Positions 396-61,286 are shown, counted from the first letter of the stretch. The stretch is DNA of 64,000 nucleotides from Deltaproteobacteria bacterium (GCA_023265625.1 JAHFST010000011.1:1-64000), one strand, 5' to 3'. Numbers and translations are program-made. The notes: generated by a model from the sequence alone, not told the origin.

Positions 396-3300
396 ATGAA
401 CCAGGCATTGAACAGCTCGTTACAAAATTTCTTCAGCTCCTCCCGAAGCTTTTCCAGCTTGGCATGGACTACGGGGACTGATTTGTCTCGGTTTCAATCA
501 GCAGCCTCGGCGGTGCGTGATTCCCTGGTTTCATTGCAGGCTCAAGGGTTGCCTCTTGGACCTGGTGCTGGGGTCTTGGGCAATTTGGAGCAGTTGATTA
601 GTGGGATGGCCGATCTGGCGAGGCGTCCTCAGGTGGTTCGGGAGATTCGCGAACTCGAATTGACCGTCCGTCACTCCGTGGCCCGTCAATTGCTCAATTC
701 CAGTGACGAAGCACTGCGCGTGTCCCTGCGTGTTCCCACCGGAACCCTGAACGATTTTTCTCCCGATCTTCGTCTAGATGCGGACGGACTCTTGGCGGGC
801 GCGGGCCAGCTCATTCCTGGGGCGGAATCTTTTACGGAGCTGCAACGGTATTTGCGCGTCTATGGCGGGGCCAATTTCAATCTGCGCGAAGAACTGGAAA
901 AACACGGGCCGGAACTGCTCGGGGCCCTGCCCCAGCCGCTGGCCGATCGGGTGAGGATCTTGTGTCAGCGCGCGTTGCGCATCGTCCATTTCGGCCGCTT
1001 TCGGGACATTCCGAGCAGCGAGGTACGCGACCAATGGCTCTTGGGAGAGCCGGATATTGCGGCCCTCCGAACCTTCGAGTCTTGGATTCCTGAGACGGTG
1101 TCCGCTGAAATCGTTGTGAATCAAGATCTGGAAGGGGCCTTGTGTGTATTCGAGGCGGTGGAGCGCAGGCTCGGTGCCGCCACGGATCATGCCGAGCTTG
1201 CCCAAGCCCTGGAAGATGTCCCGCAACTTCGTTTTGTGGGGAAGGACGCGAACCAGCGGTTGATTCCCAAAGAAGAATTGATGGATGCGTTACGCAATCA
1301 TCGACCCGTGCCGGCGACTATTTTAGCGGGTTTGGATCCTCGCTTGGCACCCGTGATCGAACCGCAAAGACAAGAATTAGAACCAAAAGACGCAAGAGAT
1401 CTGGCCCGGTTAAGGTCTCAAACGGAAAGTTTAGAAGCGAGACTGTTGCATGCGGATTTTCGTCAGGCCTCTGATGATCAGGTGGCACGGGTACGATACT
1501 TGTTGGATGATGCCATGGGTGAACAGATTTTGGCTCTTCGTCAAAAAGCGGGTGAGGGTCCCGAAGTCCTTGCAGCCGAGATTGATCGTTTAGCGGAACG
1601 TCGTCGCGATCTCTTCGCGGCAGAAGTGGCGGTAAGGGCCGCAGTCTCAGCGGTGCAGAATGAAGGTGGAAAAATTTCCGAGGCGCGGACTGTTTGGGAT
1701 GAAAAATTTGAAAAATTTGATCTTGCCTGTGATACCGCGGCCGAAAAATTTGTGGATACGGTCATGAGTAATCCCTGTGTGAGGATGCATGGCATTGTCA
1801 CTTTGCGGCTCAATCGGGTGGATGGGATGGTGTTCCGCCGGGTGCGAGGTGACCAGCGAACCCGTGATATGAAAGGGAGCAATGTGCGCGTCCAGCCCGG
1901 GGATCAGTTGGAAATCGTTGAAGAGGCTACGGGAGAGGTTAAGGAGACATTGCTTATTCAGTTTGAGGAGGCGCAACGGACTTTTCGTGTTTCATCGACC
2001 ACAAAGGAGGCCCCAAGGGCAGAACCAGCGAAAACAGCTGATGCTTCTCAAGAGGATGGGGCACCGGTACCTCAGGAAGCGACTCCCCTGGAACAATGGC
2101 GCGCACGCTTTGGCCTCTTGACCCCGCGTTTGGCAGCGTTGCATGGATTGTGGGAGCGATCAGAAGCCCTCAAGTCGAAAGTCAGGGCCGTACAAGACTT
2201 GCGCGATGTCATTTGTGGGCGGGCTGCCGTTGTTGGTCTTAAGACGGAAGTTGGGGCTGTTTTACAACAGTTTCCGGAGGACGCGTCCGAACTCGTGCTT
2301 GCAAGCCGCATGCGTATGCAGGCCGTGGTTGCTGAGGGTGGAGAGGTGGAGGTTGTTTTTGACCAAGCGAGACAGGTGATTCAAAAATACAATGAACTGA
2401 AACGAACCCTGAGCTCACTCTATGGCCCCGCCCGTCTTGGTTTGACGGCGGGAAAGTTGCGAGATCTCCTGACTCAAGTGGCCACTGTCTATGGAGATGG
2501 AACCATGCCCACCTCCTGGGGGAATGCCCTCCCGGATAACGCTGAAGACCCCTTCACTTTTGATGAATGGCTGAGTCGCATTGCCGGGACTGACGAAGAA
2601 TTGGCCCCATTGAAGGCCTGGCTTGATGTGGTGGAAAGCGCGGATCTAGCGCCATTGGACTCGAATATGACAGCCCTGGGAGGTGCAGGGGGAGAGATTG
2701 CTGCCTTCAATTCAAGGGCGGGGGCACTCAAGACTGAGCTAGACGGAATCAAGGGACGATTGACGGAACTTCCTCCACAGGCCTATGAGGCGTCCGACGC
2801 AGACGCCAGGGGCTTCCGTCGTGCTTTCAAGGACCCTCTTGCAACTTTGTATCCCTCAGGGGTCGATGCCGCGGTGACCAGCGCTTGGTCGCGCTTGCAC
2901 AAGAATGTACCCGCACTGGCCGCTTCATTCACGCCACAGACCTGGTTGGCCGATGCCGCGGGTCAGGACCGGTTGCTGACGGAAACCCGGGAGCGTATTC
3001 GATCACGGGCTCGGGTCGCCGCCGATTTTCAGGCCCAGGCCCTGGCCGATCTGGCAACGATTGAGACCAGCTTTCAGCGTAGCTATGCCGAGCCCTCGGT
3101 AGCGCAGGAAGATCAATTCAAACAGACTTATGACACCGATCTAAAGTCCCTTTACGGCAGGGGGCGTGAGGCGGATCTCATCGAATTGAGGGCTTCGGAT
3201 GGAACCCCGAGCATTCGCCCTTCGATCTTGAGGGGTGCCTGGGCTCGGCTTCACCACAATTTCCCTGAATTGCGAACGACCTTGACCCCTACTTCATGGC

Positions 3301-6300
3301 AAGGGGCGGATCAATCAGGGCAGATGCGTCTCTTAGATGCTGCGCGGAAAAAGATCAAAGACGCGACCCGAGTGTCTGAGGATTTCAAGCACAGGGCCGA
3401 GCAGGACCTGAAGATCATCGAGACCGCCCAAACCCCCATTCCCAGGGTCGAGGATTCGGAAGTCAGTCTTCTCAAAAGGAGCCAGCGTGACCGGCTGAAA
3501 AAACTCTTCGAAGCCAGGAGGCAGGAAAAAGCGGCTGAGGAATTTGCCATACTCCAGAAGGTGCTACCCGACGCCTATAACCATGCCGAGGTCGGAAAGT
3601 CCCTCCGACCGGAGCGGATCGAAGTGGCGATTGACCTCGTTGCCGCAAAATTGCCTGAGCAGGTGCAAGTTGATTTGGTCGAGCATTTGCGCGGGAGGAT
3701 CGACCGCCTGGCGGGTGCCGCGATGGATGCCGCCGGAGTGGCGTTGTTAAGGTCCAAGCTCGACCAGTTGGGCTCCCACACCGATCGCGTCTCTGCGGCG
3801 TTGGAGCGGTTGGAGGAGCGTATTCAAGTGGCGGAAACGAATCGGGGTCTTCCGGATGATCCTCATCGCGGGGACCTGGATCGGTTGCGGCGCGAGAAAT
3901 CGAAAGAGTTTTTTGAGAACCACAAAGAGTGGAAGAAACTGACGAGAGCCCTCTCCTTGGAGACCCATCCGGATAACGGGCGCCCTCACCAGCAGTGGAA
4001 ACTCTACGAGGCGGTCTTCAAGGCCACGGAAAATATCAAGGCCTATCTGCTGGAGAATATGGCCTCGTTTGCCGATTCCCGTGCTGATGTGACCCTTGAG
4101 GAGGACCCTCCTGCCTCCGAAGAGCTTCGACAGGGATATCGGTTCCGTCGCGAAGGGACCGCGGGACATTACACCTTTACCCGCGAGGCTGGTGCCGCTA
4201 CGGCTTCATTCGGACGCCTGGATTTAGGTAAGAATTACCAAGAGGTTGTTCCGGATCATTTGCAGGTGTGTTTTCAAGGAGGCGAATGGCAGGTTCAATC
4301 CTTCAGCACGGATGGCACCCGTGTGAACGGCAAAAAGCTTTCGACGGGTTCTTTTGTCAAAATCAATGACCAAGACATTCTTCAGTTGGGCAATGCCTAT
4401 TTTCAGGTTGCTATCCCGGCATCGGGTCAGTTTCAACTTTGCGAGATGGCCGAGGTTGACGCCAAAAAGATATTGGAGAAAAAACGTCCCATTTCCTGCA
4501 CGGGGACGCTCGGAAGCTATGTCGTCACTATTCAAAAAGCCTCGGCCTTGGAAGGGATTAAGTTGGGAAGAAGCAATGAGGTCCTTGTTGACGCTAAGAC
4601 CATTTCCAGGGAACACCTGAGACTTGACCATGATGGAACCCGCTGGAGGGTTTCCAATTTGAACGCTAGAAATGAGACTTATGTGAATGGTGTCGTCGTG
4701 GCAGCCGCCCCGATGTTGTTAGGAGAACGTCCTTTCCTAAGCATGGGAGAATGTTATTTCCGAGTCTCTTTTGACAATCCCGTCAATATTGTCCTGACAC
4801 AAATTTCAAAAGACGAGGTCCCTGAAGATTGCAGGCGTCCGGAGGATAGGACTCCTCAACCTAGGGGAGGAAATGCTGGGTCAGGTGCCGCCCCGCGTGC
4901 CGGAGCGGCAGCGCCTCGAGCTCGGACAGCTACCAAGCATACCTTTGCGTTTGCGCCACAATCGGGAAAAATTTATTGGCTTGGCAAGGCAAAGCATTGC
5001 AATGCCGAGATTCCCAATGGAGACCTAGCGAGTGAGCATTTAAGCTTTGCCTGGGAAAGTGATCATTGGGAGATCCAGGATATGGGCACTGACGGAGGAA
5101 CACGTCTGAATGGGCGTGATATCGGTCAGGGGAGTGGCAATCGTGGTGATTGGTTATCGTTGGAAAGTGGTTCTATCTTTGAAGTGGGAGGGATTTATTT
5201 TGAGGTGACCGTCAATGCGGCCAATAACTTGCAGTTGATTGAAATTACTGAAGTCGACGCAAAGACAAAAATTGGGCTTAAAAGGGCGCAGGGCGCCGGA
5301 GCCGGTTCTCAGGCAGGTTCAGCGGCCATTCCAGCACCGGTGATGCTCCGAGGTGATGTTGATTTGAACAATATCCCCGTTGTCAGTCGCGAGGCGACCG
5401 GTCAGTTGGGAAGTTTTTCCATCGCGACCAGTCAAGGGGTTGGCTACCAGGCCAAATCAGGTCATAACGAAGATACGGCTGCGTACGTTTTTGATCCCAA
5501 CGGCGATCTTTGTCTGCTCGATATCGACGGTATGGGGGGGCATGGGCATGGTGATGTGGCGTCCGGATTGATTACTGACGAGTTTGTGAATCATTTTGGT
5601 CGCACCGGAGATGCTCGGGGAGCGTTTCGTAAGGGACATGAGGCGGTTGATCGTTGGAATGATCAAAATATTTCCGATAGAGAGCTCGGTAATTCACCGG
5701 GAGCGGTCGGTGTTTCAGCGCAGATTCTTAAACCCAAGGCCGATTGGCCCGCCTATCGTGTGAAGTATCACTGGAGTGGCGATCCTGAGGGATTTCATTT
5801 GAGGCGTGAGAAGGGTGGCGCATGGAAAGTTGTCTATGATATCGAGAAACATGAACGCGCGGGGCAACCCACCCAATGTCTTGGGGCGGCCGAGCGTCTG
5901 TTCAAGGTTGATTCGAGTTCGGAAATGGAGTTGGAAGAAGGAGATTTGGTCTTACTTGGGTCCGATTGTCTTACCAAGATTTACGGAGATGATTTGGCGC
6001 TCCTGCTCCCTATCATTCGTCAGTGCCAGACAGCGGACGAAGTCGTAAGGACCATCACTCAAGATGCCCACGCGAGAATGCGGTCAGGAGGCAAAAAAGA
6101 CAATTACAGTGTGGCGGCCTACCTCCATCGCCTCAAGGGACAGGCGAGTGGTAAAGGTGCAGGAACAAAGGGTGCTGCGAGTGGTGGTGCCCAGGCGGGT
6201 GCTCCTAGTGGATCAGGGGCAGCACGTGGTAATGGGGCTCCATCTTGTCAACAGTCTGGAAAAGGTGTTGAAGTGAGATTGGGAAACGCCAAAAAGATCC

Positions 6301-6581
6301 GGATTGAAAAAGGCGCTTCTCTGGGAGTGGCTCCGACCATCATGGGTGGAACAAGAGAGGGGATGTATGCCCTCACGATCCCCGGCTTAAAACGCGGGCC
6401 TTTTGGCTCCATTTCACCAGATCCTAATCAGCCCGGCGTTTTCAAGGTCATGGCCACCGAAGATGGAATGCAGATTCATCGAAGAGGTCGGCACATCAAA
6501 ACGTTGGATGCCGCTGACGAGATGGACCTCCAAACTGGCGATGTGATTGTCATCCAAGGGGTATCGATCGTCGTTTCTTAA
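396..6581 (+). CDS. Giant multidomain protein: J-domain-like segment, three FHA domains, PP2C-type phosphatase
   Basis: 2061 residues. The N-terminal half (to about 1150) is alpha-helical with no recognised family; it holds a duplicated unit of about 100 residues near 800-890 and 905-1010, sharing AW-RLH-N and TP--W motifs. Around 1165-1225 is a J-domain-like stretch with the HPD tripeptide (LETHPDNGR). Three FHA-like domains follow (about 1245-1345, 1365-1460, 1513-1605); the second is the most canonical (GRS...SREH...N...VNG). A PP2C domain (about 1668-1910) has its metal motifs: HNED, DIDGMGGHGHG, SDCLT and KKDNYS. A Gly/Ala/Ser linker leads to a beta-rich tail. FHA domains bind phospho-Thr and PP2C removes Ser/Thr phosphates, so a phospho-signalling hub is likely; the substrate is unknown. 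No signal peptide is seen, so it should be cytoplasmic. Confidence 0.85.
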   Translation: MNQALNSSLQNFFSSSRSFSSLAWTTGTDLSRFQSAASAVRDSLVSLQAQGLPLGPGAGVLGNLEQLISGMADLARRPQVVREIRELELTVRHSVARQLLNSSDEALRVSLRVPTGTLNDFSPDLRLDADGLLAGAGQLIPGAESFTELQRYLRVYGGANFNLREELEKHGPELLGALPQPLADRVRILCQRALRIVHFGRFRDIPSSEVRDQWLLGEPDIAALRTFESWIPETVSAEIVVNQDLEGALCVFEAVERRLGAATDHAELAQALEDVPQLRFVGKDANQRLIPKEELMDALRNHRPVPATILAGLDPRLAPVIEPQRQELEPKDARDLARLRSQTESLEARLLHADFRQASDDQVARVRYLLDDAMGEQILALRQKAGEGPEVLAAEIDRLAERRRDLFAAEVAVRAAVSAVQNEGGKISEARTVWDEKFEKFDLACDTAAEKFVDTVMSNPCVRMHGIVTLRLNRVDGMVFRRVRGDQRTRDMKGSNVRVQPGDQLEIVEEATGEVKETLLIQFEEAQRTFRVSSTTKEAPRAEPAKTADASQEDGAPVPQEATPLEQWRARFGLLTPRLAALHGLWERSEALKSKVRAVQDLRDVICGRAAVVGLKTEVGAVLQQFPEDASELVLASRMRMQAVVAEGGEVEVVFDQARQVIQKYNELKRTLSSLYGPARLGLTAGKLRDLLTQVATVYGDGTMPTSWGNALPDNAEDPFTFDEWLSRIAGTDEELAPLKAWLDVVESADLAPLDSNMTALGGAGGEIAAFNSRAGALKTELDGIKGRLTELPPQAYEASDADARGFRRAFKDPLATLYPSGVDAAVTSAWSRLHKNVPALAASFTPQTWLADAAGQDRLLTETRERIRSRARVAADFQAQALADLATIETSFQRSYAEPSVAQEDQFKQTYDTDLKSLYGRGREADLIELRASDGTPSIRPSILRGAWARLHHNFPELRTTLTPTSWQGADQSGQMRLLDAARKKIKDATRVSEDFKHRAEQDLKIIETAQTPIPRVEDSEVSLLKRSQRDRLKKLFEARRQEKAAEEFAILQKVLPDAYNHAEVGKSLRPERIEVAIDLVAAKLPEQVQVDLVEHLRGRIDRLAGAAMDAAGVALLRSKLDQLGSHTDRVSAALERLEERIQVAETNRGLPDDPHRGDLDRLRREKSKEFFENHKEWKKLTRALSLETHPDNGRPHQQWKLYEAVFKATENIKAYLLENMASFADSRADVTLEEDPPASEELRQGYRFRREGTAGHYTFTREAGAATASFGRLDLGKNYQEVVPDHLQVCFQGGEWQVQSFSTDGTRVNGKKLSTGSFVKINDQDILQLGNAYFQVAIPASGQFQLCEMAEVDAKKILEKKRPISCTGTLGSYVVTIQKASALEGIKLGRSNEVLVDAKTISREHLRLDHDGTRWRVSNLNARNETYVNGVVVAAAPMLLGERPFLSMGECYFRVSFDNPVNIVLTQISKDEVPEDCRRPEDRTPQPRGGNAGSGAAPRAGAAAPRARTATKHTFAFAPQSGKIYWLGKAKHCNAEIPNGDLASEHLSFAWESDHWEIQDMGTDGGTRLNGRDIGQGSGNRGDWLSLESGSIFEVGGIYFEVTVNAANNLQLIEITEVDAKTKIGLKRAQGAGAGSQAGSAAIPAPVMLRGDVDLNNIPVVSREATGQLGSFSIATSQGVGYQAKSGHNEDTAAYVFDPNGDLCLLDIDGMGGHGHGDVASGLITDEFVNHFGRTGDARGAFRKGHEAVDRWNDQNISDRELGNSPGAVGVSAQILKPKADWPAYRVKYHWSGDPEGFHLRREKGGAWKVVYDIEKHERAGQPTQCLGAAERLFKVDSSSEMELEEGDLVLLGSDCLTKIYGDDLALLLPIIRQCQTADEVVRTITQDAHARMRSGGKKDNYSVAAYLHRLKGQASGKGAGTKGAASGGAQAGAPSGSGAARGNGAPSCQQSGKGVEVRLGNAKKIRIEKGASLGVAPTIMGGTREGMYALTIPGLKRGPFGSISPDPNQPGVFKVMATEDGMQIHRRGRHIKTLDAADEMDLQTGDVIVIQGVSIVVS

Positions 6582-6692: not shown

Positions 6693-7682
6693 ATGACGAC
6701 AACCACTTGGCGCCCCGGAATGCCGACTTCGGATATGCATGCCGGTCAGGTGCCCATGCAGACTGGTTACCAATTGGCTTCACACCTGCTGGGAGATGTG
6801 ATGCAAACCGAGGCTCCGGATCAGCTCGTAAAATGGCAGGCCCTGCAGGCGGGCAAGGATCCGCAGGTACTGGTGGTCGATGGTTGTTATGACCATATGC
6901 ATCTTATCTTGGAGGCGTCGGGCATCCCGTTTGCTCGCCTGGGAGAGCCGGCCTTGCTGGCCGCCGCTTTGGAAGAGCACCCTATGGTCAAGGCGGTTTT
7001 GATCAACTGTGGCCGCACCTTTCCCGAAGCTTCCGCTCGCACCGCCGCTGCCTTTGTTGAACGAGGTGGTCTCTTGGTCACAACCGATTGGGCTTTGGAG
7101 AATGTCCTCGAGGTGGGTTTCCCTGGGACCGTGAAGCACAATGGGAAAACGACGGATGGGCATGTTTTTGTTGATGTGGAATTTGGCGATCCGAGAAAAA
7201 AAGCCCTGCCGGCCCCGTCGCTGGCTAGTCATCGGGTGATGGCTAAGTTGGCGGGTGCGTCCAGTGCCAAACCCCGTTGGTGGTTGGAACCAACGAGTTA
7301 TCCCATTGCACGTTTGACGGATGATCTCGATATATTGATCTATTCCCCGCAGATGAAGACGGGATATGGCTCAGGTTCGGTCATGGTGCGTTTCCGACAT
7401 GGGGCGGGGTGGGTTTATCATATGGTTTCACACGCTTTTTTGCAGCATAAAGCCCCGGGCGATTGGGCAAAGGCCTCTGCCGATCCAAATGACGCTCCAT
7501 CCACCGTGCTTTACACATCGTTGATGGGCGCGTCACCCAAAACCACCGAAGCTTACGAAGCCGCTGAGCAGGCTGATCCGGAATTTGACGAGGCGGCCGC
7601 TGCCAACACTTCCCTTTCCACGGCGGCGTTGTTGTTACCCATTTTTGAGGCCACCAAGTTAGATACCGACACGGGACGATAG
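6693..7682 (+). CDS. Uncharacterised protein with class I glutamine-amidotransferase-like fold
   Basis: 329 residues, starting at an ATG behind a good GGGAGG site. Residues about 55-150 alternate beta strands and helices in a flavodoxin/GATase-like way: VLVVDGCYDH, a hydrophobic strand ending in LINCGRTF, then AAFVERGGLLVTTDW. This resembles ThuA-like or trimerisation-type GATase folds, which usually lack the catalytic triad. The G-x-C-x-G nucleophile elbow is not seen, so enzymatic activity is doubtful. The C-terminal half contains a segment RFRHGAGWVYHMVSHAF and an acidic Ala-rich stretch. No signal peptide. It sits between the FHA/PP2C gene and another gene with the same upstream motif, so it probably acts in the same process. 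The fold call is inference from pattern only. Confidence 0.6.
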   Translation: MTTTTWRPGMPTSDMHAGQVPMQTGYQLASHLLGDVMQTEAPDQLVKWQALQAGKDPQVLVVDGCYDHMHLILEASGIPFARLGEPALLAAALEEHPMVKAVLINCGRTFPEASARTAAAFVERGGLLVTTDWALENVLEVGFPGTVKHNGKTTDGHVFVDVEFGDPRKKALPAPSLASHRVMAKLAGASSAKPRWWLEPTSYPIARLTDDLDILIYSPQMKTGYGSGSVMVRFRHGAGWVYHMVSHAFLQHKAPGDWAKASADPNDAPSTVLYTSLMGASPKTTEAYEAAEQADPEFDEAAAANTSLSTAALLLPIFEATKLDTDTGR

Positions 7683-7767: not shown

Positions 7768-9156
7768 ATGCATGTACCACCATCAGGAGGTAGAGGGGCT
7801 GCAGGTAGTGTGTTCAACGGTCAATTGTCCCATGCGATTTCCGTGCTCCGCGCACCCCCTGTAACGGCTGCTTTACTAGGTCGCACGGTGGCGTCTGCTA
7901 CGTTGCGGATTGCCGAAATCTTTACCCCGACGGTGAATCCAGGGATTCCCGTGGTGCAAGCCTATCAGGTGGGGGCAGGGGATGGAATTCGAGCTTATCC
8001 GCAATTGATGATCGGCCTGGGGCCCTGTACGGGACCTTGTTCGTTTATTGTCAGTTCCAAACAAAGGGGGCCTGGGTTTGTCACTCTGCCCGATTCGGAA
8101 AAGTTTGTCGATCCGAGCGGGTCGATGAAGGTGGAGGTGGCGAGACATGGGGTTGGGAATAAAGTGACCCTCACCAATCTCAAGCCGAATGCTTTTCGCA
8201 TGATGTTTCGAGTGAACGGAAAAGATGGGCTAGTGGAGAGTTCGATATTGCAAGGATCTCAGAGTTTTGATGCGTCACGGGTTGACTCTGTTCAGGTTGT
8301 TTTGGTCGACAAAGGGAGTTATCCCTTTCAGTTTGAGCAAGGGTTTTATCTGGCGGATATTGCGTTGAATCTTCCCAAGGTTGCGGTGCGGCCCGAGGTT
8401 CCCGATATGGACTCTGGAGTAGATTCACATGCTCGTGTTTACGTGAGAGCAGCGGATTTGGACTTAATGGGAGTTGTTGGGGGAAGGCATATGCCGAATC
8501 CGCGTGTGCCTGCCCGTGTGACACCTGTGAAGGCGACTGCGGTCCCGGCGATTCGAGATCGAGGGCGCATTGCAGTGGTGGCGACCGTCAGCCATCTGGC
8601 TGTTGCCGCTGGCCGTTTGGTGGTTGCTGCGTGGAGACGCTTCTTCCCGCAGCCCTTGAAGGGCGCGATTCATCAAGCGACCAAGTATGCTTTCAAAGGA
8701 TCTCCTCCTTTGGAGGTCAATTTGGACTCCGTGGATTGGACCAAAACAAAAGAGTTGGAATCGTCTTTGACCGTCACGGTGCGACGGGCAGACAAAGGGC
8801 GGAAGCGCCAGACAGTGGCTACCGAGACTGGGGCCGAGATCCAAGTCCCTTCCTTTGACAATCGCTTTTCCCGCTCTGGCACGATCGCACTGGAGTTGCA
8901 TAGGGAAGGAACCGGTGTGACCAATCTTGAAAAAGTTCCTCTTCGGCTGAGTTATGAAGGATTTGTTTATAAAACTCTGGAACCGTCTCAAGCGGTGAGC
9001 CTTCCCTTGCAAAATAGACGGATTACCGTGGAGAGGATGGGCGAATCAGGATGGGAAAGGCTGGTTGACTTCTTCTTGCCAGACAGAGACACAAATCCCG
9101 TGGCCGAAGGTTGCCAGACCGCCGCCATTCATTCGGACGACTGGGGCGCTAAGTGA
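7768..9156 (+). CDS. Uncharacterised protein of the FHA/PP2C cluster
   Basis: 462 residues from an ATG with a strong AAGGAGGG site. I do not recognise a family. The N-terminal third has a Gly/Pro-rich start and an odd CTGPC pair near residue 90; much of the rest looks beta-rich (many alternating Val/Leu/Thr strands), with a basic, Ala/Val-rich helical segment near residues 265-295 (AVVATVSHLAVAAGRLVVAAW) that could pack against a membrane or be a buried helix. The C-terminal 140 residues look like an immunoglobulin-like beta sandwich. No clear signal peptide. Its upstream motif links it to the other cluster genes. Function unknown. Confidence 0.6.
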   Translation: MHVPPSGGRGAAGSVFNGQLSHAISVLRAPPVTAALLGRTVASATLRIAEIFTPTVNPGIPVVQAYQVGAGDGIRAYPQLMIGLGPCTGPCSFIVSSKQRGPGFVTLPDSEKFVDPSGSMKVEVARHGVGNKVTLTNLKPNAFRMMFRVNGKDGLVESSILQGSQSFDASRVDSVQVVLVDKGSYPFQFEQGFYLADIALNLPKVAVRPEVPDMDSGVDSHARVYVRAADLDLMGVVGGRHMPNPRVPARVTPVKATAVPAIRDRGRIAVVATVSHLAVAAGRLVVAAWRRFFPQPLKGAIHQATKYAFKGSPPLEVNLDSVDWTKTKELESSLTVTVRRADKGRKRQTVATETGAEIQVPSFDNRFSRSGTIALELHREGTGVTNLEKVPLRLSYEGFVYKTLEPSQAVSLPLQNRRITVERMGESGWERLVDFFLPDRDTNPVAEGCQTAAIHSDDWGAK

Positions 9157-9261: not shown

Positions 9262-9534
9262 ATGTATCATTGGGATGAAAAGAAAGATCGGACGAACCAG
9301 AAAAAACATGGGATCAGCTTTTCAGAGGCTAGGGATCATATTTTTGAAGGGAACAATGTTTTGGCACCACAGATTGCTTATGAAAAAGAAGAAGCAAGGC
9401 ATGCGGTCATTGGGAAGTTCAAGGGGAAATACTATGTGGGTATTTTTACCTTTACCCTTCAAGGGGTACGCATCATTTCGGTAAGGAGGGCGCGACGTGA
9501 AGAAGAAAAACAAGCTCAAGAAAAAGGGATTTGA
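9262..9534 (+). CDS. brnT: BrnT-family toxin (type II toxin-antitoxin)
   Basis: 90 residues with the BrnT pattern: an N-terminal YHWDEKKDRTNQKKHGISF segment (family signature W-D--K---N--KHG), a central VIGKFKGKYYVGIFTF strand pair, and a C-terminal IISVRRARREE helix. BrnT proteins are RelE-fold ribonucleases that stop translation until neutralised by BrnA. The gene overlaps the downstream brnA by 38 bases, the usual toxin-first order for this family. The DNA upstream is more AT-rich than its neighbours, which fits a mobile module inserted in the cluster. Family assignment is from sequence pattern. Confidence 0.85.
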   Translation: MYHWDEKKDRTNQKKHGISFSEARDHIFEGNNVLAPQIAYEKEEARHAVIGKFKGKYYVGIFTFTLQGVRIISVRRARREEEKQAQEKGI

Positions 9535-9745
9535 CGAGCGGTTTGATGAGGGGCGTGAAGTCATTGACTTCTCGGGCGGGCATGTCACGCGCGGACTCAG
9601 CAAAACGATCAAGCTGCCCCCTTTGGATGTGCCAGCCTGGATCGCCATGGAGATCGAACGGTTGGCGCAATTTCAGGCAAACTCCAAGGCCTCGGTCGTA
9701 CGACAGTTGCTCGTTGAGGCGGTAGAACGCCGGTTGGCCTCTTAA
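9497..9745 (+). CDS. brnA: BrnA-family antitoxin
   Basis: 82 residues starting at a GTG (9497) with an AAGGAGGG site at 9483-9490 inside brnT. The N-terminus is Lys-rich, followed by FDEGREVIDFSGG and, in the C-terminal half, a ribbon-helix-helix-like segment (LPPLDVPAWIAMEIERLA...SKASVVRQLL). BrnA antitoxins bind BrnT and repress their own promoter through the RHH domain. The start codon choice rests on the ribosome site; the overlap with brnT suggests translational coupling. Confidence 0.8.
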   Translation: MKKKNKLKKKGFDERFDEGREVIDFSGGHVTRGLSKTIKLPPLDVPAWIAMEIERLAQFQANSKASVVRQLLVEAVERRLAS

Positions 9746-9902: not shown

Positions 9903-10157
9903 ATGGACGTTGTTTTCAGCACCCACGCCGAAGAAAAAATAGAACTTTTGAATACCAACGGTTTTTCCATTACTAAAAATCAGGTTGTTGAATGTCTCGA
10001 TAAACCTGATAGAATGGATGCTGGTTACAAGGGTAGGATCATTGCCCAACGGGTCATTGACGACCGGCATGTTTTAAGGGTTGTTTTTGAAGACAAAGAT
10101 AATGTGAGACGTGTTATCACCTTGTATCCGGGCAGGAGGGAACGATATGAAGATTAA
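9903..10157 (+). CDS. DUF4258-type small protein, putative toxin
   Basis: 84 residues. The pattern FSTHAEEKIELLNTNGFSIT at the start and a strand pair ending VLRVVFEDKDNVRRVITLYP fits the DUF4258/RelE-like group: a His near the N-terminus, a central G-xx-AQRVIDDRHVLRVV core, and a final Tyr-Pro strand. Such proteins are commonly paired with DUF2283 proteins and are thought to be toxins of type II modules. The ATG follows a weak ribosome site (TAGGA). The gene overlaps the next by 11 bases. Toxin function is inference. Confidence 0.7.
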   Translation: MDVVFSTHAEEKIELLNTNGFSITKNQVVECLDKPDRMDAGYKGRIIAQRVIDDRHVLRVVFEDKDNVRRVITLYPGRRERYED

Positions 10158-10353
10158 CTATGATCGTGAGGATGATATTTTGATGATTGAAACGGCTCCG
10201 GGTAGGATCGACCACGCCGAAGAAATGGGGCAGATTATCGTTCATTTCACTAAGGATGATAAACCGGTCCTTCTAGAGATCTTGGATGCCAGTGATTTTC
10301 TAAGTTTAGTCACCAAAACTTCGTTGCGGGCCAAATCGATCGAAATCAATTGA
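10147..10353 (+). CDS. DUF2283 protein, putative partner/antitoxin
   Basis: 68 residues starting at ATG 10147, behind GGAGGGAACG, inside the end of the preceding gene. The N-terminus MKINYDREDDILMIE and the following H-AEEMG-IIVHF are the DUF2283 hallmark (a YD---D-LYI start, then a strand). An upstream in-frame start at 10111 would add 12 residues but lacks the family match. These proteins are usually found beside DUF4258-type genes, which supports a two-gene module. Confidence 0.75.
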   Translation: MKINYDREDDILMIETAPGRIDHAEEMGQIIVHFTKDDKPVLLEILDASDFLSLVTKTSLRAKSIEIN

Positions 10354-10354
10354 T

Positions 10355-10424
10355 CCAAAAATAACTCCCCCCAAAGCGCAACATTTTCGCCGATCCACCG
10401 ATAATGTCGGGTGATGATAACTAT
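10355..10424. repeat. 70-bp direct repeat, copy 2
   Basis: Second copy of the promoter-containing repeat at 9766-9835, with four mismatches. It forms the upstream region of the coiled-coil gene at 10437. Confidence 0.9.
10378..10404 (+). promoter_or_regulatory. Shared promoter-like motif, copy 5
   Basis: GCAACATTT at 10378-10386 and ACCGATAA at 10397-10404, 19 bases start to start. It would place the transcript start near 10411, which rules out the ATG at 10404 as the start codon of the next gene and favours 10437. Confidence 0.58.
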
Positions 10425-10436
10425 CGTGGGAGAGGT

Positions 10437-13400
10437 ATGCCTTTAGACGTTAGATCCTATGCGCGCGCGCTGGAGGGGCTCCGGTTTGTCAGTAATTTGG
10501 CGGTCTTGACGCCCCAAGGGACGCCTGTGTCCCTTGACTTGGTGCGTCAAGCCCTGGAGCCTGTTACCGAGTTGTTTGCGGGCCCCGATGCACTGTGCTT
10601 GTCACGGCTTAATTTTAAAGAATTGTTCGAAGCGGCGCAGGGGCAAGTGAGAGCGCAACAGGTATTACCCATGGGCCCGTGGCGGGATTTGGAAGGGTTG
10701 TTGCGCGGGAGCGTGATGTCGTTGCAGCGGGACCGGTTGGATGGCCAACTGGCGGCAGCTGTATCGGATGCCGCGATATACAACGAGCGCCGGCCTGACC
10801 GGATGCCATTGCCCAGCATCGCTGTGACTCCCTCTACGCTTTTGGACAGGTCCCGGTTCGATAAAACCTGGCTGTTGCGCATGGATCGAGTGCTGGGTGT
10901 TTCGATTCCGTTCATTCCGTGCCACGTCATGATGGCTCACCCCGATATTTTTCTGCACCCTCCGGGATACACGGTCGACTATGGTTTTAAGGAGTTATGT
11001 CGGACTTATTTCCCGCCCGCCATGAGCGAAGAGGATGTGTTGCAACATGCCGAAATTTTGCAACAGGCGCTGGAACAATCGGACCTCGATGAAATTATTC
11101 CGGTGTTGTTGGGTTCGCAGATCCAGGATGCTCGAAAAACGGAATTGAGAGAAGTTATCACTCACTTGCGAACCCTGTCGCAAGATTGGCACCACGACCC
11201 GAAGGACGTCCACGATTTGCTCCAAACGATCCCACAGGCCTTTGGACTACGGACGAGATTGGAACAATTGGTCGGGACGCCGGTGCGTACCGTGGTGGTG
11301 GTCCGTGAGGTGGAGCACAAAGTGATGGTGGCGACCGAGGTTGTGGATCCCACAAGTACAGCTGAGTATCAAGAGTTGGCGCGGCAGGTGTTGGCGAAGG
11401 CTGAAGAAACAGCCGTCCATGCTACCGCGCTTGGTGTTTTGCAGAGGCGATTTGATCTTTTAGAGGTAGGTGAAGCCACTGCACAACGAAGCGTAGCCGC
11501 TTTGACGGAAACCCTTGGAGAGGTCAGCGCCAGAGCGGAGACTCAGGAGGGTTTGCTGGTTGAATGGAGCGCGAAAATTGCAAGACTAGAGCATGCGGTT
11601 GATGAGCTTACAGATAGCGAACAGGCTGCGATCCGCACCATGGTTGACGCGAACGCACGATCCGAAGCCTTGTCAGTAAGTCTCTCTGGGGCCGAGGATA
11701 AGTTAGTTATTGCCGCGCTGCGAGAGGCTGAGGTGGAACACCGTACCGATCAGTTGTCCCGAGCCTCATGGCGCCGATTGGATTCTGTTCGGAAGTATCG
11801 TGAAGGATTGGAAGTACAAGAACAATCATTGGCGGAGCGGGTGGGGGCCATCGAGGCCAAGGAACAGGCCGCGGCGCTCGCCGTGCAGCGGGCTGGGCTC
11901 TTGCTCACCTTGAGCGAGCATCGTGTGACCCTGATGGAACAGCAACGGGACCAGGCCCTAGCGGCGCGGGATCATTGGGTACTCGAACATGGACGGGCGT
12001 TGCAGGGTGTTGCAGTCGCTAATAAATTGTTACGCACTAAGGGAGAGCGGGAGGTCGCTTTGGAACAAGCCCTGGCTGATCTTACCCTGGCTCGGGAAAG
12101 GGCCGATCAATCTCGAGAGGCGGCCGCGGTAGATGCGAGTGCCGCTCGGCAGACATTCTTTGAGTTTAGAATGGCGGCGCTTCGTCAGACCCGAGCGCTT
12201 GAAGACCTGAAAGAGGATCGGGATGGCATTGACTCCAAACATCAGGCGCAAAAAGAGGTTGAGCGTACATTGCGTGACGCCTTGAGCCAGGCCCAAGGCG
12301 AGCGCATCGCGGCGCAGCGTTCGCAGAAGGAGACGGAAGGGCGTCTGGCTGATTCGCAGGCAGCGGTGGCTCGTTTCGAAGCGGCTGCTCATGAACATGC
12401 GGAGGTGGTGCAACGCCTGCGTGACGAACGGGATGCCAAGCAGGTTCAGTTGGCGAAGAGTTTAGGGGAGTTGGCCCATGAGCGCAGAGCTTTGTCGAGG
12501 GTGGCTTTGGATCGTGATCGGCTGCGTGAAGAACTAACGACGACTCGGCAGGCCTTGGCTGACGCCACGGAGCGTCTCAGTCGTTTGGAAACAGTCGAGG
12601 CCGATTTCAAGAAGTTAAGCGAAGAGCGAGACCGGCTGACCGAAGAGGCGAGCCGATGGAAGTTGACGGCGCAGGGGAGCCGGGATGTCAATGGCAGCCT
12701 GCAAGAACGCATGGCCCGCTTGCAGGACGAACTGCGACGCTTGGAATTATTGGTTGGGGATCTGAGGCGGGGAGACACCTTGGTGGAAGAGATCATGCCT
12801 TTTGAGGCGGAAATGGCACCCGGCATGGAGCGCTATTTTCAAGTGGCAGACTATCAGGTTGTTTCGGCAGGGCAGGCGGTGAATACCCGTCTCATGGTTG
12901 TGGAGGGATACCAGCTTTTTCTGGTACGGCGCTCCTCGAAAACAAAACAGGAACTCCCGATGGATCCAAGCCGGGCCTACCATCTATTTCATGGCGACCA
13001 AATTCTGATTAAAGGAATGGACTCAGTGGTGCAAGCCTTTGTGAACATCTCTCCGGACAAGATTGCGTTTGCGTTAGTGCCCCCGTTTCCTGGTACCTCG
13101 GGTCGCGCCGCGATCAGGCCCGCAGATCCGGGCATCGACTTTGCCTCCCTGAGTCTAACGCAAGATATTCAGATCCCGGATGCCTTACAGCATGTGATGG
13201 GGATCGAACACTCGCCCGAAAGCCATCACTCCAGGCATCAGACGGTGGCAGTCAAGTTGCGTGCCCTAGATGCCGGAATCGTTGGTGCGAATCGCACGAT
13301 CTTTCATGTGAACACCGCCGGCCAAGAGACGGTGATTCCGGAAGACAGGGCACACCCTTTTGTCCTGCAGGCCCATGATCAAATCCGGGTCGTGGAGAAG

Positions 13401-13499
13401 TCTTGGTTACAACGGGATCGAGTCTCCGTGTATCAAGTCCAGTTCCAACCGACGGGGGATGCGGGTTTCCGCCGACTCGCCCTGGTTGCGGTCAAATAG
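10437..13499 (+). CDS. Long coiled-coil protein with beta-rich C-terminus
   Basis: 1020 residues from ATG 10437, which has a GGGAGAGG site; an in-frame ATG at 10404 overlaps the promoter-like box and is unlikely. The N-terminal 300 residues are mixed alpha/beta and unrecognised. Residues of about 310-800 are a nearly unbroken coiled coil rich in Glu, Arg, Ala, Leu and Gln. The last 210 residues hold two beta-rich modules: one with LFHGDQILIKGMDSVV, the other with FVLQAHDQIRVV. The D-QI-I pattern recalls the final strands of the FHA/PP2C protein (LQTGDVIVIQG) and of FHA domains, so a degenerate FHA-like fold is possible. No signal peptide. It is probably a cytoplasmic scaffold working with the FHA/PP2C protein; this is inference from shared upstream motif and position. 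Confidence 0.72.
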   Translation: MPLDVRSYARALEGLRFVSNLAVLTPQGTPVSLDLVRQALEPVTELFAGPDALCLSRLNFKELFEAAQGQVRAQQVLPMGPWRDLEGLLRGSVMSLQRDRLDGQLAAAVSDAAIYNERRPDRMPLPSIAVTPSTLLDRSRFDKTWLLRMDRVLGVSIPFIPCHVMMAHPDIFLHPPGYTVDYGFKELCRTYFPPAMSEEDVLQHAEILQQALEQSDLDEIIPVLLGSQIQDARKTELREVITHLRTLSQDWHHDPKDVHDLLQTIPQAFGLRTRLEQLVGTPVRTVVVVREVEHKVMVATEVVDPTSTAEYQELARQVLAKAEETAVHATALGVLQRRFDLLEVGEATAQRSVAALTETLGEVSARAETQEGLLVEWSAKIARLEHAVDELTDSEQAAIRTMVDANARSEALSVSLSGAEDKLVIAALREAEVEHRTDQLSRASWRRLDSVRKYREGLEVQEQSLAERVGAIEAKEQAAALAVQRAGLLLTLSEHRVTLMEQQRDQALAARDHWVLEHGRALQGVAVANKLLRTKGEREVALEQALADLTLARERADQSREAAAVDASAARQTFFEFRMAALRQTRALEDLKEDRDGIDSKHQAQKEVERTLRDALSQAQGERIAAQRSQKETEGRLADSQAAVARFEAAAHEHAEVVQRLRDERDAKQVQLAKSLGELAHERRALSRVALDRDRLREELTTTRQALADATERLSRLETVEADFKKLSEERDRLTEEASRWKLTAQGSRDVNGSLQERMARLQDELRRLELLVGDLRRGDTLVEEIMPFEAEMAPGMERYFQVADYQVVSAGQAVNTRLMVVEGYQLFLVRRSSKTKQELPMDPSRAYHLFHGDQILIKGMDSVVQAFVNISPDKIAFALVPPFPGTSGRAAIRPADPGIDFASLSLTQDIQIPDALQHVMGIEHSPESHHSRHQTVAVKLRALDAGIVGANRTIFHVNTAGQETVIPEDRAHPFVLQAHDQIRVVEKSWLQRDRVSVYQVQFQPTGDAGFRRLALVAVK

Positions 13500-58897: not shown

Positions 58898-59581
58898 TCA
58901 TTCCTCTACTGTTGCGAGGCGCTCAATGAAATTCTTAGTTAGACCAATGCGGTGTGCCGGAATATCAGCTGCTAATTTTTCAGCTTTCGATAATATGTCT
59001 TCGCTTGAAGATCGTGAAAGCCCCTTCAACATCCCTCCAATGAAAGATTGAGCCATCCTCTCCCACGCGATGGCGAACCCATAAGCATTGACCTGAGTTA
59101 TAAACGAGGGAGATGTGACACCTAATACATTCATCCATTTCACCAAAACCTGAGTGCGAGCCTCATCCGAATCCTTTGAGTAATGAGTTTGGTCAAGAAC
59201 CTCCGATGAATTACGCTGCAGTCGATGATTGATATCAGCCAACACGAAAATACCCCAGACCTCCGGTAGATACTGAACGATGTTTGAAGACAACTTGTTG
59301 ATTGAGTCAGGATCTGGACGCTTGAAGCATCGACACAGTCCAACAATAGCCTCATCAATAAGCTGTATTTTTAAATTGGCGTTCAATCCCTGAGGCCCAA
59401 CGACGGCAGAAATATGGTTTGTTTTAAGAAAAGATTCGAGCGGAGCAACGAGCTCCATCTCGACATTCTGACGACAGAAATCATAGCCACAAAGGACTGC
59501 GGCAACTATGCGCTGTCGATTTGCGTCGAGTTTCGAAATCTTATACCAAACAGGGTTAAATAATTTATCCAATAGTCCCAT
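58898..59581 (-). CDS. Uncharacterised protein encoded with the Ser/Thr kinase
   Basis: 227 residues, mostly alpha-helical by composition, with no signal or membrane segment. Starts MGLLDKLFNPVWYKISKLDANRQRIVA. I recognise no family. It overlaps the kinase gene by 17 bases and precedes the SNase gene by 6, so the three are translated from one message. It could be a kinase substrate or regulator, which is inference. Confidence 0.7.
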   Translation of the reverse strand: MGLLDKLFNPVWYKISKLDANRQRIVAAVLCGYDFCRQNVEMELVAPLESFLKTNHISAVVGPQGLNANLKIQLIDEAIVGLCRCFKRPDPDSINKLSSNIVQYLPEVWGIFVLADINHRLQRNSSEVLDQTHYSKDSDEARTQVLVKWMNVLGVTSPSFITQVNAYGFAIAWERMAQSFIGGMLKGLSRSSSEDILSKAEKLAADIPAHRIGLTKNFIERLATVEE

Positions 59582-61286
59582 AGTACTTACCCCCTGTCAC
59601 CGCCATATCCAAAGATCTTATGACGGTTTTGCATACGTGCAGATCCAATGGAGGTTTAAAAGTAGGAGGCTTCACGCCAAGTTCATTAGCTATTTTGATC
59701 AACTCTTCCTCATGTGTGCCATATGCGTGATCAACTAGTCTTTTGGCCAGTGTGGGCATGGAGTAGTTTGCCAAAACACAGGCATTCAATGCCGATACCA
59801 CGGTTAGATTTTCTAGGGTTAGATACAATTCTGCAATTTGGTCCGCATATTCACTGAATTTTTCAGACAGCCAGGCCGCAAGCGTGAGCCACATGAGAGG
59901 GGCAATAGCGGCCTCATCTGGAGACTTTGATCTATATACCTTTAAAATGTGGTCGCATGCTCCACTGGTTTTCCCATTGTAGAGATACCACCATCCAAAT
60001 TCGGGATAGTTGAATAGGAGAACAGGCGAATATTCGACACACCACTTGAACACCACGCTCAATGTTTGGTCGGCTTGACTAAACTCGTTTGCTGCAATCA
60101 TCTGCCCGGCAAGATTCACCGCAGGGTCTATATACAGCTTGCCCTCATGCTTGCCCGAAGTAAGACTGAGACTCTCCAAGGCCATCTTAAACATTTCATG
60201 AGCCTCCAATTTTCTGCCTTCCGTCAATAGGAGAATGGCATATGAGTTCAGCAGGAAAAGGTTAGTGGGACTTTTCTGAAGCGAATTTCGAAGCAATGTT
60301 TCGGCCTCTCCGTGGCGACCTTGCGATCTGAGAAATGCCGCTTGTACAATAATATCCGAAACCTGATCCGAACGCCGCTGTTGATGTGCTGTGAGGTTGT
60401 GAAGACCAGCTTCAGAAATAAGAGCCGTGTACGAATTCGGTCGAGATTCTGGACTGAGTCTGAGGGCGGCAATGATAAGGGATATCAAAGGCTGGATTTC
60501 CTGACCCCTCTCATTGAAAACCAATCGTAATGGAGCATTCCTTAGAATTGGTCGAAAGCGGTAACCAGTTTCAGCGCCCAAGAATGGGTGCTGTCCTGTG
60601 AGAGCTTCGTAAAAAGTTACTCCAAGAGAATAAATATCAGTCCTGACAGACGGAGAGCCTCCAAAAAATAACTCGGGAGCCATGTAAAGCGGAGTACCTC
60701 CAATTCCCCCGAGTAAAATCGAATGATTCATATCTTTTTGGAGATCGTCTATGCTTCGAAGATCCCCAAGTCTTTCAATGGCAAAGCTCGCCATTCCAAA
60801 GTCCGATAGCCGTGGTGCATTTGAAGTATCAAGTAGTACGTTCGAAGGCTTTATATCCTGGTGTATAATTTTAGTAGAATCGAGCGCGTAGCAAAGCCCC
60901 TCGACCAACTGTAAACTGAACTTAATAATATTGGGGGATGGCCATTCCATGATCTTAGTTTCGGCAAGTGACTTGTCATACCAATCAGCGATAATCGCGG
61001 GTTTAGGTCCCCACTCTGTGTAGGCTCTTGCATGCGAGATATATGGATGGGTTCCGAGAGAAATCCAAAGTTCGACTTCTTTCATGAATTGCGAACGCTC
61101 CGCCAATTCCTGATAAGTTTTCAATGCGAGTGGCGGAAACCAGACTGGGTGTACAGGAATAAGTTGATATACCGTGCCCATTCCACCTTTTAGAATCTTC
61201 CCAATGACGAACTTCTCATTCTCCAAGGCCTGCAGTGAGATAATTGAACCAACTAATGGTTCTGTTAACAATTGGGTGTTGGACAT
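59565..61286 (-). CDS. Ser/Thr protein kinase with TPR-like C-terminal region
   Basis: 573 residues. The Hanks-type kinase domain covers about 25-285: Gly loop KGGMGTVY, Lys56 in LALKTY, catalytic loop IHQDIKPSN (141-149, with Gln in place of the usual Arg before the catalytic Asp144), SDFGMAS (DFG 162-164), and MAPEL. Residues of about 310-570 are helical repeats of TPR type (AAFLRSQGRHGEAETLLRNSL, NSYAILLLTEGRKLEAHEMF). There is no membrane helix, so this is a soluble kinase. The missing Arg makes it a non-RD kinase, usually not controlled by activation-loop phosphorylation. Confidence 0.9.
   Translation of the reverse strand: MSNTQLLTEPLVGSIISLQALENEKFVIGKILKGGMGTVYQLIPVHPVWFPPLALKTYQELAERSQFMKEVELWISLGTHPYISHARAYTEWGPKPAIIADWYDKSLAETKIMEWPSPNIIKFSLQLVEGLCYALDSTKIIHQDIKPSNVLLDTSNAPRLSDFGMASFAIERLGDLRSIDDLQKDMNHSILLGGIGGTPLYMAPELFFGGSPSVRTDIYSLGVTFYEALTGQHPFLGAETGYRFRPILRNAPLRLVFNERGQEIQPLISLIIAALRLSPESRPNSYTALISEAGLHNLTAHQQRRSDQVSDIIVQAAFLRSQGRHGEAETLLRNSLQKSPTNLFLLNSYAILLLTEGRKLEAHEMFKMALESLSLTSGKHEGKLYIDPAVNLAGQMIAANEFSQADQTLSVVFKWCVEYSPVLLFNYPEFGWWYLYNGKTSGACDHILKVYRSKSPDEAAIAPLMWLTLAAWLSEKFSEYADQIAELYLTLENLTVVSALNACVLANYSMPTLAKRLVDHAYGTHEEELIKIANELGVKPPTFKPPLDLHVCKTVIRSLDMAVTGGKYYGTIG

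Follow-up and report, generated by a model that had tools for sequence, protein, structure and literature searches.

The window analysed here, a stretch of 64,000 nucleotides from a Deltaproteobacteria bacterium, carries near its start a single unbroken reading frame that runs on the plus strand from an ATG at position 396 to a stop codon at 6581 and encodes a protein of 2061 residues. The main features of this protein are presented in Table 1. The codon-position GC of the ORF (0.64/0.46/0.55) is coding-like throughout and resembles that of other genes in the window, and the gene is present in a single copy within its own 2.93-Mb, 96%-complete genome. The open frame, the coding-like GC and the single copy bear out the protein proposed at this position by the first-pass annotation of this DNA. 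No transmembrane segment is predicted in the 2061-residue protein (maximum 19-residue hydropathy, 1.43), and no obvious signal peptide was observed in it. Peptide patterns of the whole protein found no match when scanned against the collection of genome contigs, nor did plasmid and phage searches with the target. Directly upstream, positions 1-261 of the window contain the end of a repetitive coiled-coil gene that is cut by the contig start.

Table 1. Features of the 2061-residue protein and their positions in the window.
Feature	Residues	Position	Strand	Description or basis
Whole gene	2061 aa	396..6581	+	Helical N-terminal half, tandem helical repeat, J-like hairpin, FHA1-3, PP2C, C-terminal beta-type segment
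N-terminal part	1-806	396..2813	+	No family match; no relatives detectable in other giants
Tandem repeat of ~100 aa	807-907 and 908-1015	2814..3440	+	Units 43% identical over 74 residues; residues 907-1060 have relatives in two other giants
J-like helix-HPD-helix stretch	1160-1230 (HPD 1191-1193)	3873..4085	+	Unconfirmed
FHA1	1267-1341	4194..4418	+	Ser (V1285) and Asn (D1306) of the phosphothreonine site lost
FHA2	1379-1460	4530..4775	+	Complete signature: G1391, R1392, S1404, H1407, N1426
FHA3	1519-1607	4950..5216	+	Arg replaced by K1531, Ser by A1545, Asn by G1567
PP2C phosphatase domain	1663-1924	5382..6167	+	Lineage profile, AF2/Foldseek, metal-ligand positions
C-terminal segment	1946-2061	6231..6578	+	Beta pattern; possible degenerate fourth FHA-like fold; no match found

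The ~1250 N-terminal residues match no family, in agreement with the large helical sequence of no known family that had been described at first reading. Within this region, the two units of the tandem repeat are 43% identical over 74 residues. The stretch from about residue 907 to 1060 has homologous segments in two other giant proteins, in each case preceding the FHA array: one in G015:C25 (E=3.5e-7) and, more weakly, one in G019:C23. No relative was detectable for the N-terminal sequence outside residues ~907-1060. Between the helical part and the FHA array, the HPD motif of the J-like stretch is present as first annotated. The J domain itself is unproven, because the isolated segment matched no Pfam family at E<=10, a profile built from the genome's own four J domains aligned weakly (15.7 bits for the segment and 9.7 for the whole protein, over the helix II-HPD part only), a single-sequence AF2 model of the J-like stretch with FHA1-2 placed the HPD in the loop of a helix-loop-helix at an overall pLDDT of 39, which is not usable, and no counterpart was found in the giant ORFs of relatives. 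A PF00226 scan of the genome identified four other J domains, and the target's stretch was not among them. If real, this domain would be private to the target protein.

The FHA family (PF00498) was matched in Pfam over three stretches (E=7.8e-22), each of them above the gathering cut-off in the whole-genome search, which confirms the three FHA domains noted initially. The phosphothreonine-site signature of FHA domains consists of Gly, Arg, Ser, His and Asn (PMC4037201). Among the three domains of the target, the complete five-residue signature was observed in FHA2 only. The complete site is placed differently in relatives with a triple array, where it occurs in the first and third domains of one giant (L033) and in the third domain of another (L039). 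At the domain level, a marginal match was obtained between the target FHA and the FHA structure of plant KAPP (1mzk, E=0.046). The segment at the C-terminal end of the protein possibly represents a degenerate fourth FHA-like fold, as suggested by its beta pattern.

Searched with the target alone, the PP2C domain stays under the Pfam cut-offs (SpoIIE, 0.016; PP2C_2, 0.055), and the NCBIfam model Stp1_PP2C matches residues 1690-1739 only, with E=4.3e-9 and well under the family cut-off. The domain was therefore aligned with 21 relatives from the class, and the resulting profile (A2) was compared with solved PP2C structures. The best matches were tPphA (E about 6e-29 to 7e-29) and Stp1 (7e-24), followed by PstP (E=7e-20) and PppA (E=2e-18); the profile matches the target at 1.5e-70, though the target is itself a row of A2. 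For the structural model, an AF2 alignment was assembled from the PP2C domain of the window and 11 PP2C homologues from viral contigs, leaving out the closer class relatives. The model reached a mean pLDDT of 72 and a pTM of 0.76, values to which the canonical PP2Cs in the alignment contribute by helping the fold along. In the Foldseek comparison with the PDB, the listed top 50 matches were all PP2C-superfamily phosphatases (tPphA, Stp1, PstP and PppA), with E-values down to 9e-14. All metal-ligand positions are present and aligned to conserved columns, namely D1693 (in the motif NED), D1711 and G1712 (DGMGGH), D1796 (GD), D1857 (SD) and D1902 (DN), and we take these positions to hold the metals as they do in tPphA and PP2C-alpha. 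Thus, the fold could be modelled, and the metal motifs that had looked intact in the first-pass annotation align throughout.

Several positions of the PP2C domain depart from the canonical enzymes. The phosphate-binding Arg, expected three residues before NED, is replaced by S1688, with K1687 one residue earlier; the SDG motif reads SDC; and the insertion that the closest relatives carry between SDG and DN is absent. In the PP2C tree, the branch leading to the target is long (1.75 changes per site), and the target falls among the PP2Cs of giant proteins, a grouping that is only moderate because the gathering fork has a support of 96/71 and is marked open. These departures, together with the erosion of two of the three FHA phosphothreonine sites, would suit a pseudophosphatase scaffold, whose PP2C fold would have lost catalysis and would persist as a structural module or a binder of phosphoproteins. 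We consider this rather unlikely, since the sequence has diverged strongly and yet retains all five metal-binding positions, a pattern not easily accounted for unless selection has preserved them. Furthermore, a Lys or a shifted basic residue in the place of the Arg is usual among class relatives, and this Arg is not a fold-defining criterion for PP2C (PPM).

The target's own genome contains nine kinase matches over the Pfam cut-off, four PP2C matches besides the target and seven FHA matches outside it. Within the window, the kinase gene closest to the target encodes a Ser/Thr kinase with TPR (59565-61286, minus strand) and lies 53 kb away. Housekeeping genes (EF-Tu, rpoB) are found within 20-30 kb of the target. 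Sequence comparison revealed no link between the target and its neighbours at 6693, 7768 and 10404. The first of these (6693-7682) encodes a 329-residue protein without a family match that has relatives in four other class genomes, and no PP2C or FHA genes were found near those relatives; one of them (L284) adjoins a Ser/Thr kinase gene. No relatives of the gene at 7768 were found in other class genomes. The gene at 10404-13499 encodes a 1031-residue protein of no family, which combines an SMC-like coiled coil with a C-terminus rich in beta structure. The interval separating it from the 7768 gene contains a BrnT toxin gene followed by a small gene placed like an antitoxin (9262-9745) and a DUF4258/DUF2283 pair (9903-10353).

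Of the 105 PP2C matches tallied in the A2 search of 46 class genomes, 44 fall within open frames of 1000 residues or more; the tally omits the weakest tail of the match list. At least 39 distinct giant frames of 1000-17,560 residues were counted in 12 of the 46 genomes; the true proteins may be shorter, because open-frame lengths run from stop to stop. In ten named genomes outside the class, the search gave 35 matches in frames of 253-1093 residues. When 241 genomes were sampled, of which about 195 lie outside the class, seven outside matches were obtained at E<=1e-25, all in frames of ordinary size (241-499 residues). As A2 was built from class members, the search favours the class. The counts show a class restriction of the A2-type PP2C group, and giant PP2C proteins of other origin may exist elsewhere.

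Among the class giants, FHA-PP2C or FHA-PP2C-FHA orders were observed in L035, L037, L038, L045 and L049, the L045 genome belonging to the target's order, and the PP2C-FHA order in L043, L044 and L047. The helical segment combined with a triple FHA array recurs in two other giants (G015:C25 and G019:C23). On G019:C23, the giant with this combination is followed directly by a giant PP2C gene and then by another FHA giant. Given this adjacency, which is as expected if the modules work together, the target ORF looks like a fusion of the functions of two neighbouring genes. The complete domain order of the target was found in no relative. The first-pass annotation had been unable to match the architecture to a known family and had anticipated few homologues with the same order. 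This is valid for the full order; the combination of FHA and PP2C is known from KAPP and from bacterial PP2Cs and recurs in the class giants, so that the outcome is mixed, with an order seen nowhere else assembled from modules that recur in many giants. That unrelated genes were joined into this ORF as a chimera or by misassembly is very improbable even though the window begins at a contig end inside a repetitive gene and the full order stands alone, as the coding signal extends across the whole ORF, the contig measures 121 kb, and the helical segment with the FHA array and the FHA with the PP2C each recur in independent genomes.

Further giant frames of the class combine other domains. The longest frame, of 17,560 residues (G008:C17; L036, L273), contains five or more PP2C matches, one or more FHA domains and hydrophobic segments resembling membrane helices. 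Kinase-like (APH/Kdo/RIO), RelA_SpoT, HD and PP2C domains were observed in one frame of 5942 residues (L034:8129-19498, on G019:C13). In family f13, several members of which carry 8-14 PP2C matches per genome, giant RelA_SpoT/TPR genes (L043:8856-16001 and L047:7262-14971) lie directly downstream of PP2C-FHA giants; their identity was assigned by Pfam for L043 and by resemblance of the same segment for L047. This arrangement suggests a possible link of the PP2C scaffolds to ppGpp-type signalling. Tentatively, the class may possess its own PP2C group, mostly in FHA proteins of 1000-17,560 residues and sometimes with RelA/SpoT, HD or kinase-like domains, as a private phospho-signalling system whose huge scaffolds would unite reader and eraser, perhaps together with second-messenger enzymes; we regard this broader proposal as somewhat doubtful.

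Two other explanations were considered. The target could serve in conflict or defence, as one of a set of modular giants found across the class whose scaffold ends exchange signalling domains (PP2C, RelA/SpoT, HD, kinase-like). Relatives do join PP2C with such domains or adjoin RelA_SpoT giants, and their N-terminal halves diverge rapidly; however, PADLOC returned no match for the target or its three larger neighbours, the target has no membrane segment, and EF-Tu and rpoB are encoded nearby, which makes a defence role improbable. Less probable still is a regulator of a secretion system that acts like threonine phosphorylation by type VI PpkA-Fha-PppA and carries the Fha-type and PppA-type functions on one chain. 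That pathway is built from a kinase, an FHA protein and a PP2C (PMC5995506), the Foldseek and profile matches include PppA (6jkv), and the FHA part matches TagH/VI_FHA (TIGR03354) with 40.6 bits, which is below the cut-off of 120. Against this, the Stp1 and tPphA matches are equal or better, and no secretion gene was observed among the neighbours examined.

The reading we favour, with modest confidence, is a soluble cytoplasmic PP2C-type Ser/Thr phosphatase placed at the end of a long helical scaffold, addressed by FHA and opposing the cell's own kinases; in this reading we infer catalysis, docking through FHA2, the substrate and the role of the scaffold. FHA2 would dock on a phosphothreonine made by one of the cell's Hanks-type kinases, either on the kinase itself or on a partner. 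FHA1 and FHA3 may provide structural or phospho-independent contacts, and the helical N-terminal half may bring in other partners. The tethered PP2C would then strip phosphates from the docked complex, and the signal would end. Counted in favour of the phosphatase were the PP2C fold with its metal ligands, the FHA2 signature, the adjacency of FHA and PP2C in relatives, the nine kinases, the absence of a transmembrane segment and the tree grouping. Counted against it were the displaced Arg, the SDC motif, the long branch, the distance of the nearest window kinase, the variable position of the intact FHA among relatives, and the neighbour at 6693, which is not linked to PP2C or FHA genes elsewhere. 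The initial suggestion of one scaffold that both reads and removes phosphates is plausible: PP2C does occur together with FHA, and only FHA2 would be left to do the reading, the phosphopeptide-binding Ser and Asn being absent from FHA1 and FHA3.

An FHA domain and a phosphatase on one chain would offer a direct route to a self-addressing end of a phospho-signal. Among the genomes searched, the giant PP2C family was seen in no class but the target's own, which is uncultured. This distribution suggests that the lineage has its own means of switching off kinase signals, and the recurrence of the family in the class gives a testable function to some giant ORFs of uncultured bacteria, for most of which the role is obscure. 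In addition, one complete and two eroded FHA sites, with the complete one shifting among relatives, provide a naturally occurring test of the roles that FHA arrays have apart from phosphothreonine binding.

Compared with known systems, the target shares the fold and the metal-ligand positions of bacterial PP2Cs of the Stp1/PstP/tPphA type, its best structural and profile matches, and differs from them in that the domain sits in a 2061-residue FHA chain, has a shifted or replaced Arg and an SDC motif, and remains under the Pfam cut-off alone. Mycobacterial PstP with FhaA/FhaB combines kinase, FHA reader and PP2C in one pathway. The type VI PpkA-Fha-PppA system has the same three components (PMC5995506). 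In both pathways these are separate proteins, whereas the target fuses reader and phosphatase. Bacterial PP2Cs with FHA have been listed (PMC12088040) and join the two domains as the target does; neither a giant helical portion nor an array of three FHA domains is mentioned in that source. In uncultured lineages such as Omnitrophota, ORFs of great length and poor conservation are described mostly as membrane or extracellular proteins with adhesion domains (PMC10066038), whereas the target is predicted to be soluble and carries FHA and PP2C. An Omnitrophota origin, which the giant ORFs might have suggested, found no support in an rpoB comparison; this pointed to a deltaproteobacteria-like placement, the best match being 68% to a MAG labelled Myxococcales. 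In plants, KAPP unites an FHA reader with a PP2C eraser in a single polypeptide (PMC3091634) and is understood to act on receptor kinases as an FHA-addressed phosphatase (PMC3091634, PMC2553837). The proposed logic is the same, although KAPP has no giant helical part or FHA array and is not orthologous to the target, the similarity extending only through the two domain families. The target is therefore KAPP-like in its logic and not a KAPP, and its novelty lies less in the combination of FHA and PP2C, which was already known, than in the class-restricted expansion of giant PP2C/FHA proteins.
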